A stretch of 64,000 nucleotides of DNA. Origin: a virus. Position 1 is the stretch's first letter; the number at the start of each line of letters is the position of its first letter. The DNA is taken from the IMG/VR virus record IMGVR_UViG_3300023112_000012, positions 1 to 64,000 of that record; one strand, 5' to 3'. This document shows, piece after piece, positions 3,007-57,566 of the stretch. A model generated the notes under the pieces. The model searched no databases. It saw only the letters and a list, made by a program, of their open reading frames with translations, and was not told where the DNA came from. Position numbers and translations under genes: made by a program.

Positions 3007-3364
3007 TCTTATCTCCATTCAATAAATTAATTATAATTCTTTCATCATTTTTTTTAATTCTTTCATCATTTTTTTTAATAATTAAATTAAATTTTTCAAT
3101 AAATTTTTGTATTTCATTAAATCTTGTATGATTGCTACAATACAAATCTTTAAATTGTGGTGGCATTAAATCAATTAAATGATTTGATATATTACATTTT
3201 CTAATAATTATTTCAATATCATTACAATTTACTATAAATTTAAATTGTGTTAAATATTGCTTATTTTCAATATAGATTTTATTATTATATAAAGTTACAT
3301 CATCTCTTTTTAAATTAATATTTAAAATTGATGTTAAAAGATCATTGCTTATAGAATTAATCAT
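2999..3364 (-). CDS. Hypothetical protein
   Basis: 121 aa from the ATG at 3364, which has AAAGGAG 8 nt upstream within the end of the lipoprotein gene. The C-terminus has a tandem KKNDERI repeat (10-bp-scale DNA repeat 'ttctttcatcatttttttt' at 3038-3079). Function unknown. Confidence 0.5.
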   Translation of the reverse strand: MINSISNDLLTSILNINLKRDDVTLYNNKIYIENKQYLTQFKFIVNCNDIEIIIRKCNISNHLIDLMPPQFKDLYCSNHTRFNEIQKFIEKFNLIIKKNDERIKKNDERIIINLLNGDKND

Positions 3365-3869
3365 TACACTTCTCCTTTCCATGTTTATGACAATTATGTT
3401 TACATTTTCCATGTTTATGTTTCTTTTTATGCTTATGACAATTGTTTGTGTCTTCATCTGGAGTTTCTGTATCTTCTTCAACTTCTAGATCTGTATCATC
3501 TATTTCTTCGACTGAAATTGGACAGACTTCATCATAATCTTCACATAATTCCTCAAACTGAATACATTCTTCAACTAGATAATCTAATTCATCACATTCA
3601 TTTTTGAATTTGGTTAGAAACACAAAACATCTTAAACATTTCAATTCATTTGATAATTCTCCTTCATCAACTGTTTCTAAATCTTCATCTTGGGACTCAA
3701 TTTCTTGATCTACAACACTTTCTTCTTCAACTAATACCAAAGTATCAGTATCAACTTTTTCTTCTTCTATTACGTTGTTATATCCTTCATAATCGACTAT
3801 TCGATCTGAACAATCATAGCAACAACCAATCATAAAAAATGCTAGTGTGATTAAAATTAATTTCTTCAT
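3357..3869 (-). CDS. Lipoprotein with acidic body and His/Cys/Lys-rich tail
   Basis: 170 aa. The start at 3869 gives a classic lipoprotein signal MKKLILITLAFFMIGC (lipobox MIGC, acylated Cys at residue 16). After a Glu/Asp-rich region (about residues 30-140) comes a tail with many His, Lys and Cys (CHKHKKKHKHGKCKHNCHKHG) that should bind transition metals. Export and lipid anchoring are predicted from the signal; metal binding is inferred from composition. Its operon includes the DUF-like gene upstream. It is longer than typical o-spanins and lacks a Pro-rich region, so a lysis role is not favoured. Confidence 0.6.
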   Translation of the reverse strand: MKKLILITLAFFMIGCCYDCSDRIVDYEGYNNVIEEEKVDTDTLVLVEEESVVDQEIESQDEDLETVDEGELSNELKCLRCFVFLTKFKNECDELDYLVEECIQFEELCEDYDEVCPISVEEIDDTDLEVEEDTETPDEDTNNCHKHKKKHKHGKCKHNCHKHGKEKCND

Positions 3870-5398: not shown

Positions 5399-5467
5399 TT
5401 AACAACTGAGGTTAAACTGTCTTAACCTCTATACTTTAATTATAGCATAACCAGACACGAAAGTCAA
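5399..5467 (-). promoter_or_regulatory. Early promoter with 5' stem-loop leader
   Basis: Minus strand: TTGACT (5467-5462), 17 bp, TATAAT (5444-5439). The leader contains an 8-bp perfect stem GAGGTTAA/TTAACCTC followed by CAGTTGTTAATTTA and AAGGAGG. The stem-loop probably stabilises the mRNA 5' end. Confidence 0.75.
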
Positions 5468-5998: not shown

Positions 5999-6805
5999 TT
6001 ATATAATTACATCTTCTATACTTGGATATTCAGTTTCATTGATTGACATAGAAAGACTCATAAATGGCATTCCACTTTTCATTGCTTTAAATTCACCATC
6101 GTCGCCAAATCTAACTGTCACATCACCAATCCCACATTTTTTATATTTTAGAAATCCACTATAATCTGGATAACTAACAAATTCCACATTCCACAAAATA
6201 GGATTCTTGATCACTAATGAATCATAGCTACCAATTGATAATGTTCTGAACAGATTAGCAATTGATCTTAAGTTTAATTCATCTTCTTTTGATTCTGGTT
6301 TTAAAAAATTGAATGTTAGATTAATTGATCTTCTCTGATGTCCCTGATATAATAGTTTGTCGAATGGATTGATTGTTGTTCCTCCAGTAAGTGCCTTTGT
6401 AACTCTTGTTCTAACAGCTTCTGGAACCCCAGCACCTAAACTTCTTGCTGCTAACCAACTGCTATATTCTATAACCTTTCCACCAGTTATTTCACCTGCT
6501 AGCAATTTAGCGCCTTCAACAGATCCCCATTGATTTGATAATGTATCTTCAACTGGTAAAATTGGCATGATGATTGAACTAAAGCTCATTGGTTCGAGTG
6601 TTTCCTTTGTAACTTTATTTGCTATATCAGATACTACTTTTTTGAATTTTGGTATGAATCTAATAAAACATGCACTTTTACTATAATCTTCATTTTGAAT
6701 AAACGTTTTTAATTTTAGAGGAAAAACTAAATTGCCTGTTTTAACTGATGTTATTTTCTCAATATGTTTTTCAAAATCTTCTTTTGTTTTAAATTCTTTT
6801 CCCAT
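5999..6805 (-). CDS. Baseplate tail-tube cap/junction protein, gp48-like
   Basis: 268 aa. The segment 'PFDKLLYQGHQRRSINLTFNFLKPESKEDELNLRSIANLFR' is typical of the gp48/gp54 tail-tube junction family, as is the following WNVEFV...KYKKCGIGDVTVRFGDDGEFKAMKSGMP, which resembles a tube-protein fold ending. In T4 these proteins (gp48 364 aa, gp54 320 aa) cap the baseplate and start tube polymerisation. A leftward late motif lies at 6836-6843. gp48 and gp54 cannot be separated by eye; it is shorter than either. Confidence 0.6.
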   Translation of the reverse strand: MGKEFKTKEDFEKHIEKITSVKTGNLVFPLKLKTFIQNEDYSKSACFIRFIPKFKKVVSDIANKVTKETLEPMSFSSIIMPILPVEDTLSNQWGSVEGAKLLAGEITGGKVIEYSSWLAARSLGAGVPEAVRTRVTKALTGGTTINPFDKLLYQGHQRRSINLTFNFLKPESKEDELNLRSIANLFRTLSIGSYDSLVIKNPILWNVEFVSYPDYSGFLKYKKCGIGDVTVRFGDDGEFKAMKSGMPFMSLSMSINETEYPSIEDVII

Positions 6806-6835: not shown

Positions 6836-6843
6836 TATTTATA
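6836..6843 (-). promoter_or_regulatory. Late promoter (TATAAATA)
   Basis: Exact motif on the minus strand, 31 nt before the gp48-like start; it overlaps the end of the upstream protease gene region. Confidence 0.65.
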
Positions 6844-6847
6844 TTTT

Positions 6848-8278
6848 TTAATTAAATAAATCTTTATCTAATAAATCTATTACTCCATCTTCATCTCCAT
6901 CATGAAGTAAATCATTACTATATAACTGTTTCATTGCCCAGCCTCCTTCTAATTTTTTATTGTTTTTAGTAATTCCAAATTTATGTGAATAGAATCCAAA
7001 AACTCTTCTCGATGCTTTATGTGTTCCAGGTGTTGGTATTAAATAAAATAAATCTTTTCCTTTATAATTATCTCCCCATGAATTTTTAACAATAAAATAT
7101 GTTATGTCTTCATTTTCAATATAACCAATTATATTTACAATGTGTCCCTTGTGACCATGATTGTAAAAATGCCTTTTTCCATCTTCATCTATTTCAATTG
7201 AATCACTAAAATTATAATTGCAATCATCAATCAATGTACATTCTCCATCTTTATTTTTATCTTCTTTTTCTTCACATATTCCATTTCTATTTCCGTCCCA
7301 ACAATTTTCAAAAATTTCAAATTCATCTTTTGGTTTGATAATTCTCTTTTGAAAATTATATGGTTTATTTGTTTCAATTAATTCATCATTCTTCATATGA
7401 TTCCAAGGAAGAGCAATAATGATTGTTCTTCCTGAATTTATCATTTTTTTAACTGAATTATCATATTCATTCCAATCAATTTGAAATTCTGTTTCTGTAA
7501 ATTTATTATTGAATAAATTATATTTATATCCTCCAAATGGTTCTGTTAGCTCAGAACACTCTATTTTATCTATTCCATTTGTACATATAGGTCTAATAAA
7601 CATTCTATTTTCAACTGTTTTCATTTCGCTTATATATGATACTGTTGTTGTTTCTGTTTTCTCAATTATTTCATCAAGACATTTTTTCATGTCTATTTTT
7701 ATATTTTTAATAATATCAAACAATTCATAATTTTCATATTTTTCAATATTTTTTATTATGTTTCTACAATTTTTATATTGTTGATATTTTAGAGAAAATA
7801 AAATTGCAGAATTAAAAACTGAATTTTCATTAAAATGATTTGTGTTCCATTCCGATATTTCCCCTGGAAATAATTCATATGGAAAAATAGATTCTGTTGT
7901 TGTTTTTTTAGATCTATCACTAATATAATTATTATTATTATATTGATGCATTGCTTCTGATAGATTAATATTAAGAAAATCTCCATGAAGGTCATTTTTT
8001 TCAACAAGACCTTCTAAATATAGTCCTGTCATTGTTTCTAATGCTGATGTTTCAGCAAATTCTCCACATGTTCCGTGTGGAGCTTGATTTTTTACATTAG
8101 TGACAAAATTGTCACTACAATTCAATAGTGATGTCATTTTCATAACTTCTGTATTTAAATTAATTTGTTCTGAAAATTTAGAACAATCTTTTAGAAAATC
8201 ATTTTCATAGATTGGTTCTGTTCCAACACATCCAACACATCCAACCAAAAAAACAAAAATTAAAAATATTTTTTTCAT
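6848..8278 (-). CDS. Papain-like (C1A) cysteine protease, predicted lipoprotein
   Basis: 476 aa. Signal MKKIFLIFVFLVGCVGC with lipobox Cys at 14 or 17. The papain active-site region is VKNQAPHGTCGEFAE (oxyanion Gln65, nucleophile Cys71), the catalytic His is in GHKGHIVNIIGY (His379) and the Asn in VKNSWGDNY (Asn399): all three papain landmarks in order. Between Cys and His is a long insertion, and Asp-rich calcium-binding-like loops occur (DGNRNGICEEKEDKNKDGE, DGDEDGVIDLLDKD). It should act outside the cytoplasm, anchored to a membrane. It is transcribed from an early promoter at 8314-8342, not a late one, so it is not obviously a virion or lysis protein. Papain-like lipoproteins are rarely described in T4-type phages. 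Confidence 0.75.
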   Translation of the reverse strand: MKKIFLIFVFLVGCVGCVGTEPIYENDFLKDCSKFSEQINLNTEVMKMTSLLNCSDNFVTNVKNQAPHGTCGEFAETSALETMTGLYLEGLVEKNDLHGDFLNINLSEAMHQYNNNNYISDRSKKTTTESIFPYELFPGEISEWNTNHFNENSVFNSAILFSLKYQQYKNCRNIIKNIEKYENYELFDIIKNIKIDMKKCLDEIIEKTETTTVSYISEMKTVENRMFIRPICTNGIDKIECSELTEPFGGYKYNLFNNKFTETEFQIDWNEYDNSVKKMINSGRTIIIALPWNHMKNDELIETNKPYNFQKRIIKPKDEFEIFENCWDGNRNGICEEKEDKNKDGECTLIDDCNYNFSDSIEIDEDGKRHFYNHGHKGHIVNIIGYIENEDITYFIVKNSWGDNYKGKDLFYLIPTPGTHKASRRVFGFYSHKFGITKNNKKLEGGWAMKQLYSNDLLHDGDEDGVIDLLDKDLFN

Positions 8279-8295
8279 AATAAACCTCTTAAATA

Positions 8296-8342
8296 AATTA
8301 ACAACCTATAATAATTATAACTGATTTTTATTAAAATGTCAA
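8296..8342 (-). promoter_or_regulatory. Early promoter
   Basis: Minus strand: TTGACA (8342-8337), 17 bp, TATAAT (8319-8314), then the class-B leader GGTTGTTAATTTATTTAAGAGG before the protease ATG. Confidence 0.75.
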
Positions 8343-8350
8343 AACGTTTT

Positions 8351-8800
8351 TTAGATCTCTTGTAATAAACCTCTTAAAGGATCGATAAAGTATTTCGGTT
8401 TTAATTTAAAATCATCTTTGTTTTCGTGTTTGATTTTGAAAATAAATGCTGGTTCTTTTGTTATGTTCTTTCCATATGAAAAATCTATTGTATCTTCGTT
8501 TAGAATTGTTATATTTCCCCATTCTTGAAGTAATCTAGCAACAGTATTTCTGTGTTGGATATTTTCATCTCTCCAATTAATATCACACCCTGTTAATCCA
8601 TATGCTTCTTTAAAATGTATAATATACCATTCTTTCTTTATCTTGATGAGAAAACATGTTTGATTTAGTGTTTTTGAATTAGGTCTACCAAATCCCATTC
8701 TAGTTAGTGTCTCATTGACTGCACTTGCACCAACATTAAGTTTTATTTTGACCAGATTAGCTGTATCAAATTGATAATTGAATTCTAATTTCTTCTTCAT
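8351..8800 (-). CDS. regA: RegA translational repressor
   Basis: 149 aa (T4 RegA 122 aa). The order 'ETLTRMGFGRP...LNQTCFLIKIKKEWYIIHFKEAYGLTG...RRN/HRNTVARLLQEWG...KLKPKYFI' follows T4 RegA along most of its length (ETLTRMG, HFKE, RD-IAWLLEDWG, KLVPKY). RegA binds early mRNAs near start codons and blocks translation. The start at 8800 follows TGGAGTTTGTT. In T4 regA lies between 62 and 43; here it stands with zinc-ribbon genes, away from gp44/45. About 25 extra residues at the N-terminus. Confidence 0.85.
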   Translation of the reverse strand: MKKKLEFNYQFDTANLVKIKLNVGASAVNETLTRMGFGRPNSKTLNQTCFLIKIKKEWYIIHFKEAYGLTGCDINWRDENIQHRNTVARLLQEWGNITILNEDTIDFSYGKNITKEPAFIFKIKHENKDDFKLKPKYFIDPLRGLLQEI

Positions 8801-8824
8801 AACAAACTCCATTTAATTTAAATA

Positions 8825-13644: not shown

Positions 13645-16614
13645 TTAAACAGCTTTAAATTTTCTTAGAAAATATTCTGATTCTCTTCTAATTTTATTCA
13701 TTTGACTTCTTGGAACGAAAAATCCAACAACTCTTGAAATGTTATCAATAATTTCACCACCACATTCAGCACAAACTTTCAAATTATTATCTCCAACATG
13801 AATATGACCATTTTCACATTTATTAAAATTATAATTAACAGCAAAATGTTGTAAACCACATTCAATTGCATATCTCATAATTTTTTTCATGTCTTCTTTT
13901 GATTTTATTTGACTATCAACATTTATATGACAAATACCACCACCTGATAAAGCTTTGAAAAATATTCCTTCATATTTCATTCTATCAAAAATATCCATAT
14001 CAACAGTTAAAGGAATGAATTGATTTGAATACAATTCAAATGGTTGAACTTCTTCTCCATAAATTATTTTGTCTTTTAGTGCAAATTTAGGAGCAAGTGA
14101 TTCACCAGGCACTTCTTCAAGATTATAATTAACATTTTCATTTTCAGACCACTCAGAAGCTTTATCATTAATATAATTAATAATATTTTTTTCAAGAGCT
14201 ATTACATTTTCTTTAAGTTTTCCATTTTCATCATACATATCATTTCCTGTTAAGTGATACATCATTTCATGCATTCCTAGAATACCAATTGTAGAAAATA
14301 ACATTTTATCAATGTTTATATAGTTTAATGGTTTAACAAATTGAAGAAATCCAGCGTCTGCTCTTTTATGTAATAATTTTCTATGTGCCTTTAATGTTTT
14401 ATGAACCATATCTAGTTGATCATCTAAAATTTCATAAAATCTTTCAATTCTATTTTGATCATCTGATTGAAATTCACTTTCAATTGCTACTCTTGGTAAA
14501 TTAATTGATACAACCCTATGACTACCTACTGATAATCCGCCATTCCCAAATGAATCTGCACCATTTAACTTTGTTTGAGAATTCAATCTGCAATTATGTG
14601 TGTTAATTCCTGTTGGTAATGTAAAATATGGATTTGTTTGATCTTTCATTTCAAAACAATATACATATTCATCTTTATAGATATTTGTTATATTTGTTAT
14701 ATTTTTAATTTTAAAATATATTGTGTTGTTTTTGAATTTATATATGTTTTTCTGTTTAGATTTATGTCTATTTTCATACCATCTAATACAATATAAAACA
14801 TGATTTCTATTAAATTCTTCTCCTCTTATCATAACCTTTTCGTCTGTTCTATCTGAAATATTAATAATACTATTTTTACCAAGCGATGTTATTAAAACTT
14901 CAAAATCTTTGGATAATTGTTCTGATGTTGTATATATTCTATTACTATTTCCACCATCTGTTATATACATACCATCCAAAATTCCCTTTCTAAATTCAAT
15001 CGATTGTAAAATCACATCTAAATTTAAACTCTTTTCATAGCAACATGAACCTTTTACCCAACGTTTAATTATTGTATGAAGCTCTTTTGATGATATAACG
15101 CAAGGATAAACATTATTATATTCTTTATAAAGTTTCATTTTCACATTTAAATTCCACTGTTCAAGAGCTTTAGCTATTATTTTGTTTAATTTTTCATATT
15201 TTTCCTTATTAATACTAAAATTAATTCTATTTTTTTCAGAACTACCATCACCAAGATATGCACCAATCAAAACTCCCTGCTCATAAGTTAAATTTTCGCT
15301 ATGTTCTGGTATAGATTTTGTTTCATTTGTATTAAAAGCAATATAATCATTTTCGGTTAAATCTTTTGTTAATTTTTCACCATCAAATGTTAAATTTAAA
15401 TGATCTTCTGTCATTTTTAAAATTTTATTATTAACAGTTTCAACTTGAAATATTTCTCTATTTTGTTTTAAAATTTTAACCATTTTAGCCTTAGACCAAA
15501 ATCCATTTTGCCAAACTTTAAAATTTTCTCTATCAATCATTCTAGTTTCAACAATTTCCTTTATTGTTGATAATTTAACTCCGTTATTACTTGATTTTGT
15601 TAAGACCATTTGATCGTTTGTAAAACAACAAGAAGCAATTTTACCAACTGAATCAGAAACATATACATTCATAATGCTTTTTGAAATATTATGTTCTGCT
15701 ACGATATCAAAAAATTCTTCATCTAATTCTATTTCATTTTCTTTATCATGTAGAAATGCAGATGTGAGAACTGGAAATCTGTATGGTTCATTTGTTGTAG
15801 GATCTCCTTTACAAAAGAATTTCATATATATTTTCTGAATCTTCATTACATAGTCAAAATCTGGTTTTGTAAAATCAGGAAACATATATCCATTAAATAA
15901 TGCTTCTAAATTATTTCTACAAAAAAGACTTAGATTAGTAAATGGACTCTGAGATCCACGAGAAAATTTATTGTTAAAAATATACACAAGAGATTGAAAA
16001 TGATTTTCTATTTGTTTATCAGTTAGATTTTCTTTTTTTGCATAATATGAATAATTCACAAATAAATCACCTATAGCAACAGCCCCTGCCATTTGGCTAC
16101 TGGACAGATTCATCACTGTCTCAATTACTTGACCAATAAATGATGCTGCTGTTTTTGGTGGTATTGCTACTGGTTCACTCCAAGGTCTACCTTCTATCAT
16201 TATTCGTGATGTTGTTGTTGAAAAACAATAAGGGACCTGTACATTTGTTGGGTCATGTAGGTAAATATCCGAATATATTATAGATTTGAATATTTTATTT
16301 GCTTCTTCTTCTCCATATTCTTTTTCAATCATTCTATAAATTAAAAAATAATTTTCTAATTTTAACATTGGTTTTGATAATTCACTAACATAATTAGCAT
16401 GATTTATACCATTATCAACATTAGCATTAGAATCAATACTTATATCAGCAACATTATCTGTTAGAAAATATTTTTTGGAATTCTTTGCAAAATCTAAATT
16501 ATCCCTACTAATTCCTTCAATTTCTAACATCAATCTACCCTTTTCATTTGAATGAATCTTATTGTATAAATCTGAAAAATTCTCTGGAAAATCCATACTA
16601 AACCTTAATGTCAT
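13645..16614 (-). CDS. nrdD: Anaerobic ribonucleotide reductase large subunit NrdD, with intein
   Basis: 989 aa precursor; about 644 aa after removal of a 345-aa intein. Class III RNR reduces ribonucleoside triphosphates using a glycyl radical. Landmarks: the active-site Cys region IASC|CRLNSQTK (split by the intein), a C-terminal Zn site (CENGH...CAEC), and the glycyl loop RVVGFFVPRSQMNK followed by RRESEYFLRKF. The sequence resembles the NrdD type in anaerobic bacteria and T4. nrdG follows one nucleotide upstream, so they are co-transcribed. Activity depends on intein splicing because the intein sits between catalytic cysteines. Confidence 0.9.
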   Translation of the reverse strand: MTLRFSMDFPENFSDLYNKIHSNEKGRLMLEIEGISRDNLDFAKNSKKYFLTDNVADISIDSNANVDNGINHANYVSELSKPMLKLENYFLIYRMIEKEYGEEEANKIFKSIIYSDIYLHDPTNVQVPYCFSTTTSRIMIEGRPWSEPVAIPPKTAASFIGQVIETVMNLSSSQMAGAVAIGDLFVNYSYYAKKENLTDKQIENHFQSLVYIFNNKFSRGSQSPFTNLSLFCRNNLEALFNGYMFPDFTKPDFDYVMKIQKIYMKFFCKGDPTTNEPYRFPVLTSAFLHDKENEIELDEEFFDIVAEHNISKSIMNVYVSDSVGKIASCCFTNDQMVLTKSSNNGVKLSTIKEIVETRMIDRENFKVWQNGFWSKAKMVKILKQNREIFQVETVNNKILKMTEDHLNLTFDGEKLTKDLTENDYIAFNTNETKSIPEHSENLTYEQGVLIGAYLGDGSSEKNRINFSINKEKYEKLNKIIAKALEQWNLNVKMKLYKEYNNVYPCVISSKELHTIIKRWVKGSCCYEKSLNLDVILQSIEFRKGILDGMYITDGGNSNRIYTTSEQLSKDFEVLITSLGKNSIINISDRTDEKVMIRGEEFNRNHVLYCIRWYENRHKSKQKNIYKFKNNTIYFKIKNITNITNIYKDEYVYCFEMKDQTNPYFTLPTGINTHNCRLNSQTKLNGADSFGNGGLSVGSHRVVSINLPRVAIESEFQSDDQNRIERFYEILDDQLDMVHKTLKAHRKLLHKRADAGFLQFVKPLNYINIDKMLFSTIGILGMHEMMYHLTGNDMYDENGKLKENVIALEKNIINYINDKASEWSENENVNYNLEEVPGESLAPKFALKDKIIYGEEVQPFELYSNQFIPLTVDMDIFDRMKYEGIFFKALSGGGICHINVDSQIKSKEDMKKIMRYAIECGLQHFAVNYNFNKCENGHIHVGDNNLKVCAECGGEIIDNISRVVGFFVPRSQMNKIRRESEYFLRKFKAV
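14593..15627 (-). mobile_element. LAGLIDADG intein in NrdD
   Basis: 345 aa (NrdD residues 330-674). Starts with Cys in CFTNDQMVLTK (block A), has a TxxH-like block B (MTEDHLNLTF), two LAGLIDADG motifs (GVLIGAYLGDG and FRKGILDGMYITDGG), and ends with THN before extein Cys (block G). Both splice-site residues and both endonuclease acidic residues are present, so it looks active for splicing and homing. Insertion separates the two adjacent Cys of IASC/CRL, the conserved active site. Confidence 0.9.
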
Positions 16615-16615
16615 C

Positions 16616-17122
16616 CTAACTCCTCTTTTCTATTTTATTATAAACAATACCTTTATCGTACCAGTAAACTTTTTTTAATCCATCTATTCTCCAAATCGAT
16701 TGGTTCCTACTAGCCAACCAAAACTCATCAACACCATCATTCTCTACAAATATCCCAGTTTTCACATAATCAACACCATTAACCTGTCCAACCATATCAT
16801 ATCCAGTATAAACAAATGTTTTATATCCAATTCCTTTTGCAAAAACAGCCAATTCCTCAACAACTTTTTCATTCAAATCGTGCATTGGATCTCCACCACT
16901 AAACACAACCCAATCACATAATATTCTTCTTTTTTCTAATTCATCTTTAATAAATTCAATATCTAATCCACTTGAATCAATAGTCTGTAATTGTGGGTTT
17001 TGACACCCTTTACAATCGTGTATACATCCAGTAAACCAAATTGTGACTGATAGTGTAGACTCACTTAAAAAAGATGGTATATCATTAACTTCTGTTGTGA
17101 TTGCTTTTATATTAGTTTTCAT
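16616..17122 (-). CDS. nrdG: Anaerobic RNR activating enzyme NrdG (radical SAM)
   Basis: 168 aa, usual size. Radical-SAM cluster motif CIHDCKGCQNP (CxxxCxxC) at about residues 33-43 and the SAM-binding FSGGDPM motif. It transfers a hydrogen atom to form the NrdD glycyl radical. Adjacent to nrdD and in the same leftward operon; the upstream neighbour is gp44 at 7 nt. Confidence 0.9.
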   Translation of the reverse strand: MKTNIKAITTEVNDIPSFLSESTLSVTIWFTGCIHDCKGCQNPQLQTIDSSGLDIEFIKDELEKRRILCDWVVFSGGDPMHDLNEKVVEELAVFAKGIGYKTFVYTGYDMVGQVNGVDYVKTGIFVENDGVDEFWLASRNQSIWRIDGLKKVYWYDKGIVYNKIEKRS

Positions 17123-39255: not shown

Positions 39256-39870
39256 ATGAAAACTACTTTAGGGAAAATAAAATCTTTCAATCCGTGTGTA
39301 CCCGGCTGGAAAAAATTATGTAAATCTTTAGGGACAACAAACCTAGATACTGAAGTTTCAATACTTCAGATTTTAGAAATCAATGGTGTGGAAGATGCTT
39401 TTTGGGCACTTCGCACCCAAGAATATGAAGACTACTGTATTGTCATTGCGGATATTGAAGAATCTACACTTCATATTTTTGAGGAAGAACATCCTAAAGA
39501 TGTTCGACCTAGAAATTTAATTCAAGCTATTAGGAATTACAAAGTACGTAAAATTTCTAAAAAAGAACTTATTACATTTCATAATTCTGCTTGTATTGCT
39601 TATAATGCTGTTGCCTATGATGCTGTTAATACTACTACTGCTGCTGCTACTGCCGCTAATGCTGCTGCTTCTGTTTATGCTGCTGATGCTGCTAATGATA
39701 CTGATGTTGATGCTACTTATGCTTATGCTGCTGTTGTTAGTGCTGCTGTTGCTGCCTATTATGCTGCTGATGCTGATAATGCTGTTGATGCTGCTGATGC
39801 TTATGCTTATGCTAAAGAAAACCAATGGGAGATTAATGAAAATATATTAAGAAAACATTTGGAGAAATAA
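39256..39870 (+). CDS. CVPGW-domain protein with Ala/Asp/Tyr low-complexity repeat
   Basis: 204 aa. The N-terminal half (PCVPGWKKLCKSLG, then ILEINGVEDAFWALR) matches a family found in phages and bacteria (sometimes called putative immunity protein) that often has Ala-rich helical repeats. Residues about 115-190 here consist almost wholly of A, D, V, Y, N, T, encoded by GCT-like triplets. First gene of the operon. Function unknown. Confidence 0.6.
   Translation: MKTTLGKIKSFNPCVPGWKKLCKSLGTTNLDTEVSILQILEINGVEDAFWALRTQEYEDYCIVIADIEESTLHIFEEEHPKDVRPRNLIQAIRNYKVRKISKKELITFHNSACIAYNAVAYDAVNTTTAAATAANAAASVYAADAANDTDVDATYAYAAVVSAAVAAYYAADADNAVDAADAYAYAKENQWEINENILRKHLEK
39600..39815 (+). repeat. 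Imperfect triplet repeat (GCT/GAT/GTT)
   Basis: About 216 nt of near-continuous GCT, GAT, GTT, ACT, AAT codons within the gene above. Slippage-prone; copy number may vary between isolates. Confidence 0.7.
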
Positions 39871-56771: not shown

Positions 56772-57566
56772 ATGAAATGTCAAGAAATTTTAGAAACTAA
56801 ACCATCTGTTTTTGGTAAATATTGCGGGATATATAAAATTGTTAATTTAATTAATAATAAAGTTTATATTGGTTCAAGTGTTGATATTTTTAAAAGATGG
56901 AAAAAGGGTCATTTAAGAACTTTAAATAAAAATGAACACGATAATAAATATTTACAAAGATCTTGGAATAAATATAGTTCTGAAAATTTTGAATTTGAAA
57001 TAGTTAAAATTTGTTCGGAAATGCTTTTATTAGAAATGGAATCATTCTATTTAGATAAATTTTGTGGTTGTAATAGTGATATAAATTATAATTTAATGGA
57101 TCCGTTGAGACTTGAAATAACAAATGAGTATAGAAAATTAGTATCAGAACAAACAAAAGGTTCAAATAATCCAAGAGCTTTAATAAATGAGCAAACAGTA
57201 AAAGAAATTAAAACAATACTAAACATGTGTTACAAATATAAGTTAAAAATAACTACAAAACTTGTTTCTGAAATGTTTAGTGTATCTGAACATATAATAA
57301 GAAATATAAAAAGTGAAAAAACGTGGAAACATGTGTCAATAGATGAAAAAATTTTATACACACAAAAAATACATAGACGTGGTGAAGATAGTATAGACAC
57401 AAATCTAACAAATGATATTGTTAGAGAAATAAAAATTTTATTACAATTAAGAAATGAAACTGAACTTAAACTAACATATAAATTTATTGCAGAAATGTAT
57501 GATATAACATATAGAGTAGTTGAAAAAATAGCATATAACATAACATGGAAACATATTCATATATAA
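56772..57566 (+). CDS. GIY-YIG homing endonuclease
   Basis: 264 aa. GIY motif YCGIYKIVNLINNKVYIGSS, catalytic Arg in RWKKGH and Glu in LLLEMESFYL; C-terminal half has two related helix-turn-helix-like repeats (KLVSEMFSVSEHIIRNI and KFIAEMYDITYRVVEKI) for DNA binding. It is free-standing between gp23 and the recombination genes. ATG after AGAGGTTAGA. Confidence 0.9.
   Translation: MKCQEILETKPSVFGKYCGIYKIVNLINNKVYIGSSVDIFKRWKKGHLRTLNKNEHDNKYLQRSWNKYSSENFEFEIVKICSEMLLLEMESFYLDKFCGCNSDINYNLMDPLRLEITNEYRKLVSEQTKGSNNPRALINEQTVKEIKTILNMCYKYKLKITTKLVSEMFSVSEHIIRNIKSEKTWKHVSIDEKILYTQKIHRRGEDSIDTNLTNDIVREIKILLQLRNETELKLTYKFIAEMYDITYRVVEKIAYNITWKHIHI

Follow-up and report, generated by a model that had tools for sequence, protein, structure and literature searches.

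The window analysed here is a 64,000-nucleotide stretch of a 67 kb viral genome record that is possibly a fragment. Within it, between regA and the gene for a baseplate tail tube cap, lies a gene for a predicted papain-like lipoprotein (hereafter the protease). The gene and the features that surround it are all on the minus strand:

5999–6805, minus: downstream neighbour, baseplate tail tube cap gene (gp48/54-like; phrog_230, 6e-17)
6836–6843, minus: T4-type late motif TATAAATA of the tail tube cap gene, 30 nt before the start of that gene
6848–8278, minus: papain-like (Peptidase_C1) putative lipoprotein gene, 476 aa; an ORF with SD and ATG, PF00112 above cut-off and a papain fold in the model
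6851–6901, minus: C-terminal DGDEDGVIDLLDKDLFN acidic loop, residues 460–476 (motif scan; low-confidence part of the model)
7073–7144, minus: His379...Asn399-Ser-Trp401-Gly motif, residues 379–402 (invariant in alignment A2; PF00112 match 374–407)
7220–7303, minus: CWDGNRNGICEEKEDKNKDGECTLIDDC insertion, residues 326–353, with two DxNxDG-type loops and 4 Cys (resembles the repeats of a Myxococcota protein, L035)
8066–8086, minus: Gln65...Cys71 catalytic motif QAPHGTC, residues 65–71 (invariant Q and C in A2)
8222–8278, minus: predicted lipoprotein signal peptide and lipobox, residues 1–19, LVGC14, alternative Cys17 (sequence and regex scan)
8314–8342, minus: sigma70-type early promoter TTGACA-17-TATAAT, 12/12 (ATG 36 nt past the -10 box)
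8351–8812, minus: upstream neighbour, homologue of the RegA translational repressor (PF01818, 2.1e-18; phrog_242)

The phage belongs to the T4 superfamily as a divergent myovirus. Its portal is 34% identical to cyanophage gp20, and it carries homologues of the gp23-like capsid, the head protease, gp25 and the gp6 wedge, the tail tube cap, Hc2, Ad2, UvsX, UvsY, gp41, gp32, gp45, gp46, gp44 and RegA. The RegA and tail cap neighbours had no relatives in IMG/VR, and a capsid search of the same collection found only an identical fragment; the capsid protein encoded at 1179–2597 of viral contig IMGVR_UViG_3300023276_001087 (L002) is 100% identical to that of the window.

A sequence-only reading of the gene had placed Cys71, His379 and Asn399 in papain order, and its numbering is correct. 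Two more papain landmarks are present: the oxyanion residue Gln65, which stands six residues ahead of Cys71 as in papain, and Trp401 of the NSWG motif. All five residues were invariant across an alignment with 20 relatives (A2), with the reservation that invariance of the His/Asn motif is biased, IVKNSWG having been the search pattern for most of the aligned rows. Peptidase_C1 (PF00112) was the sole significant Pfam family for the protease (E=6.2e-7, 30.2 bits against a curated cut-off of 20.7 bits), and a second engine, used for the genome search, returned 23.9 bits for it. Among PDB sequences searched with phmmer, cathepsin H scored 1.6e-5 and aligned in two places, at the Cys motif (DNFVTNVKNQAPHGTCGEFAETSALE) and at the His/Asn motif; a match at both motifs indicates more than chance.

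Predicted structures pointed the same way. An AlphaFold model of the single sequence was unusable (pLDDT 32). A second model, for which 20 papain-like proteins of viral contigs and two MAGs were aligned, had a low mean pLDDT of 53, though its catalytic blocks were good: residues 51–90, 271–290 and 381–400 stood at pLDDT 74–89, and the core blocks at 80–89. Papain-like peptidases filled the top of the Foldseek list against the PDB (best E 1e-4), including a secreted dipeptidyl aminopeptidase of Parabacteroides distasonis and Legionella Lpg2622. The best VIA-align match was rhodesain (6ex8_A; Z 14.8, 192 residues, 3.2 A, span 48–437), and BFVD gave weak matches only, one of them annotated 'Peptidase C1A, papain C-terminal' from an uncultured Caudovirales phage. 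The papain core that the sequence-only reading called for is present by both Foldseek and VIA-align, so that reading is not refuted; because the alignment was seeded with papain-like relatives, we treat the model as supportive and not as independent of the sequence call. The sequence profile, the active-site set and the predicted fold support a papain-family enzyme with a complete active site; peptidase activity is predicted.

The protease gene starts at an ATG at 8278 behind the SD AAGAGG. Its N-terminus, MKKIFLIFVFLVGC, has the layout M-KK-IFLIFVFLVG-C14, with the basic n-region, hydrophobic stretch and lipobox ([LVI][ASTVI][GAS]C) of a bacterial lipoprotein, as called by regex and not by SignalP. 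Just three ORFs in the 64 kb window passed the lipobox regex, and the lipobox signal claimed earlier is borne out by it as LVGC14. This clean lipobox is what supports the prediction of a lipoprotein. Some 35 residues separate the lipid Cys from the start of the mature-like core, so the protease would have no large inhibitory propeptide. The gene is ordinary for this phage in both GC content (24.7%) and codon usage (0.064, range 0.044–0.116), and recent foreign insertion is therefore unsupported by composition. A second predicted lipoprotein (MKKLILITLAFFMIGC), at 3357–3866 on the minus strand, is acidic in its body and rich in His, Lys and Cys in its tail (CHKHKKKHKHGKCKHNCHKHGKEKC); a search for its family gave no confident match.

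In papain, 134 residues lie between Cys and His; in the protease the Cys71–His379 spacing is 308. The CWDGNRNGICEEKEDKNKDGECTLIDDC insertion falls within this interval, just ahead of the catalytic His379, and contains a CWD...EDKNKDG calcium-loop-like repeat. It is similar to the repeat CWDxNxNxxCDxxEDxNxDGxC, present in many copies in the Myxococcota protein L035, which also has collagen-like stretches. L035 was rejected as a relative of the peptidase, since the match covers the CWD repeat and not the peptidase. The insertion repeat matched 3/188 Myxococcota genomes at E 0.001 and had no match in Bacteroidota, in a search run without a positive control. A motif scan found DxDxDG at residues 328, 340 and 460, in agreement with the calcium-loop-like segments named in the sequence-only reading; the loop pattern suggests that the protease may bind calcium.

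The genome has two promoter classes. Perfect 12/12 TTGACA-16/18-TATAAT sites numbered nine in 64 kb, against 0.4 expected from Markov shuffles, and stood mostly directly before start codons. Of all TTGACA/TTGACT plus TATAAT sites, 11/14 had a start (an SD plus the ATG of an ORF 45 codons long or longer) within 90 nt, usually 33–38 nt past the -10 box, compared with 5–8% of random positions. This set precedes non-virion genes. Beyond the hexamers, its promoters have in common an element resembling GTTGTTAATTT or TTGTTCTTT, located downstream of the -10 box and ahead of the SD. Examples are:

39190, 43336, 56711 and 57710, plus: promoters with a GTTGTTAATTT- or TTGTTCTTT-like element
20986, 13533 and 8342, minus: promoters with the same type of element, the last being that of the protease gene

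The other class is marked by TATAAATA, the T4 late consensus (PMC1524935). The count of this motif, 24 against 19 expected, shows no enrichment, and 11 of the 24 copies stood 28–57 nt ahead of a start. Eight of the genes so preceded are virion genes:

1473: hub/tail
21031: Hc2
35812: Ad2
50918: portal
55246: capsid
61325 and 61776: wedge
6805: tail tube cap

The sigma70-type promoter reported ahead of the protease gene is a perfect TTGACA-17-TATAAT at 8342–8314. With a promoter of the early set and no late motif in front, the gene has the marks of a T4-type early gene; the tail tube cap gene next to it has its own late motif, so the timing of the two neighbours is separated. This split of promoters between adjacent genes is the strongest support for early expression of the protease as predicted from sequence. 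The claim of early expression is thus well supported by the early-class promoter on the protease gene and the late motifs on virion genes, and a late-gene or virion origin was rejected on promoter class. Elsewhere in the window, a gene for a homing endonuclease, which has a perfect early promoter to itself, is inserted directly after the late capsid gene (56772–57566, plus). Another gene behind an early promoter (39256–39870, plus) encodes a protein that has an Ala-rich repeat (AAYYAADADNAVDAADAYAYA) at its C-terminus and matches phrog_18326, a family of unknown function.

Searches for close relatives of the protease found none by back-translated patterns in IMG/VR or in GTDB genomes and none by tblastn in 50,697 phages; a motif-pattern scan gave no match, and a plasmid search gave one weak match, to a Deinococcus C1 peptidase. 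No homologue with a known target or tested function was found, nor did the literature yield anything on point on phage papain-like lipoproteins. A scan of IMG/VR for DNA coding for IVKNSWG returned 22 stretches, mostly of papain-like proteins, and an alignment query added more. Ordinary signal peptides were seen by eye in six of these papain-like proteins (L009, L016, L031, L021, L004 and L005), and no lipobox was seen among the viral relatives inspected. phrog_16701, a phage 'peptidase' that is papain-like as the protease is, was matched by 7/7 scanned viral papain-like proteins; its profile did not list the protease at E up to 0.1. One viral relative lies amid SSB, MazG-like and RusA-like early genes (L016, 8869–9768, plus), and another lies near a small holin-like membrane protein and a carboxypeptidase-like ORF (L009, 3633–4427, minus), all names being read from sequence. 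Exported papain-like enzymes thus appear to occur in phages unrelated to this one, and the theme may not be confined to it. Among the relatives found, the predicted lipid-anchored, early-promoter, CWD-inserted form appears here only.

Compared with papain family C1 (PF00112; cathepsins, chymopapain, rhodesain), the protease shares the Gln-Cys-His-Asn-Trp order and the fold over 48–437, and differs in having no large propeptide and a predicted lipid anchor, and in the calcium-loop-like insertion just before His. Closest in overall layout are C1 peptidases that bacteria export and that carry long inserts (L026, L036, P. distasonis BDI_2249 and Legionella Lpg2622). The bleomycin-hydrolase-like C1 peptidases (PF03051), represented by L026 and L036 from Bacteroidota, resemble it in their long Cys-His insertion and exported bacterial examples and gave the best Foldseek E-values against it; the exported BDI_2249 (5wdk, 3pw3) offers a further comparison, and L036 matched both halves of the protease by blastp. 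Insert length pointed to this branch, but PF03051, which matches L026 and L036, had no match to the protease at E up to 0.1, and the assignment was rejected.

We propose, at about an even chance, that the gene encodes a protease, made early and placed in the envelope, whose action on host envelope proteins benefits the phage. A catalytically competent papain-family cysteine peptidase would be made from an early promoter of this T4-superfamily phage. After export by Sec it would receive its lipid at Cys14 and so be anchored in the host envelope. The anchor would probably lie in the outer membrane if the host has one and follows the E. coli +2 rule, since Val and not Asp follows the lipid Cys. 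The enzyme would then cut host envelope proteins early in infection and alter the infected cell to the phage's benefit, possibly by removing receptors from further phages or by disabling an envelope defence. Export, location, activity, substrate and benefit are what we infer from the features above. Action on host surface proteins, superinfection exclusion and disarming of an envelope defence, all raised by the sequence-only reading, are plausible; the protease had no defence-system match among PADLOC models.

Early phage lipoproteins such as T5 Llp give superinfection exclusion by binding (PMC9586334). The protease is likewise a predicted early phage lipoprotein, and it differs in size and domain from Llp, which is small, blocks FhuA by binding and has no protease domain. 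Small binding lipoproteins are a known means by which phages alter the host envelope, and an early membrane-anchored protease would be a catalytic way to the same end: a proteolytic, not binding-based, superinfection exclusion in which a papain-type enzyme on the envelope cuts receptors or defence proteins. We advance this tentatively, as possible and on balance doubtful. In its narrow form, the protease would cut the phage's own outer-membrane receptor and so block later adsorption or injection. The early promoter, the predicted envelope anchor and, by analogy, the early receptor inactivation by T5 Llp speak for this form, and an envelope protease could explain quick inactivation of many receptor copies. 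Known lipoprotein exclusion factors bind and do not cut, however, and the neighbouring tail tube cap gene counts for little as evidence, since it carries a separate late motif. Receptor cutting is in our judgement a possibility on the unlikely side, and its probability is contained within that of the broader envelope protease.

Other explanations lie outside the envelope-protease reading. The gene might be host-derived cargo, encoding a secreted protease that digests periplasmic or external protein to feed the infected cell or is directed at neighbours; it would then have no dedicated anti-phage or anti-defence role. Signal peptides are found on papain-like proteins of bacteria (L026, L036) as well as of unrelated phage contigs (L009, L016, L031), secreted P. 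distasonis dipeptidyl aminopeptidase and Legionella Lpg2622 are in the Foldseek top list, and the CWD module is like the repeats of a bacterial repeat protein. We nevertheless consider cargo unlikely, given that, for a lytic-type phage, a consensus early promoter fits a quick infection task and that no close bacterial homologue was found. The promoter, of the early and not the late class, also weighs against a lysis aid that, as infection ends, would loosen the envelope at the links between outer-membrane proteins and peptidoglycan. None of the genes beside the protease gene was identified as a lysis gene, and even with the holin-like and carboxypeptidase-like ORFs that adjoin the secreted papain-like protein of L009, this role seems highly improbable. 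Equally hard to credit is a dead or non-proteolytic papain fold serving as an envelope binding protein. Inactive papain folds exist (2b1m, for example, from the VIA-align comparison, has no catalytic Cys), the protease has Gly instead of the usual Trp after Cys71, and its insertions are long, yet none of the five active-site positions has been lost, and a binding protein would have no need of them.

The window holds further features of note. An anaerobic ribonucleotide reductase gene, NrdD, is split by an intein that contains both splicing and LAGLIDADG-like domains (13645–16614, minus) and is followed by an NrdG-like ORF whose identity was read from sequence (16616–17122); the NrdD/NrdG-like genes suggest an anaerobic or facultative host. 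Three similar stem-loops, at 5429–5408, 4809–4790 and 4301–4282 on the minus strand, are each followed by AGTTGTTAAT or AATTGTTAAT and precede small unknown genes.
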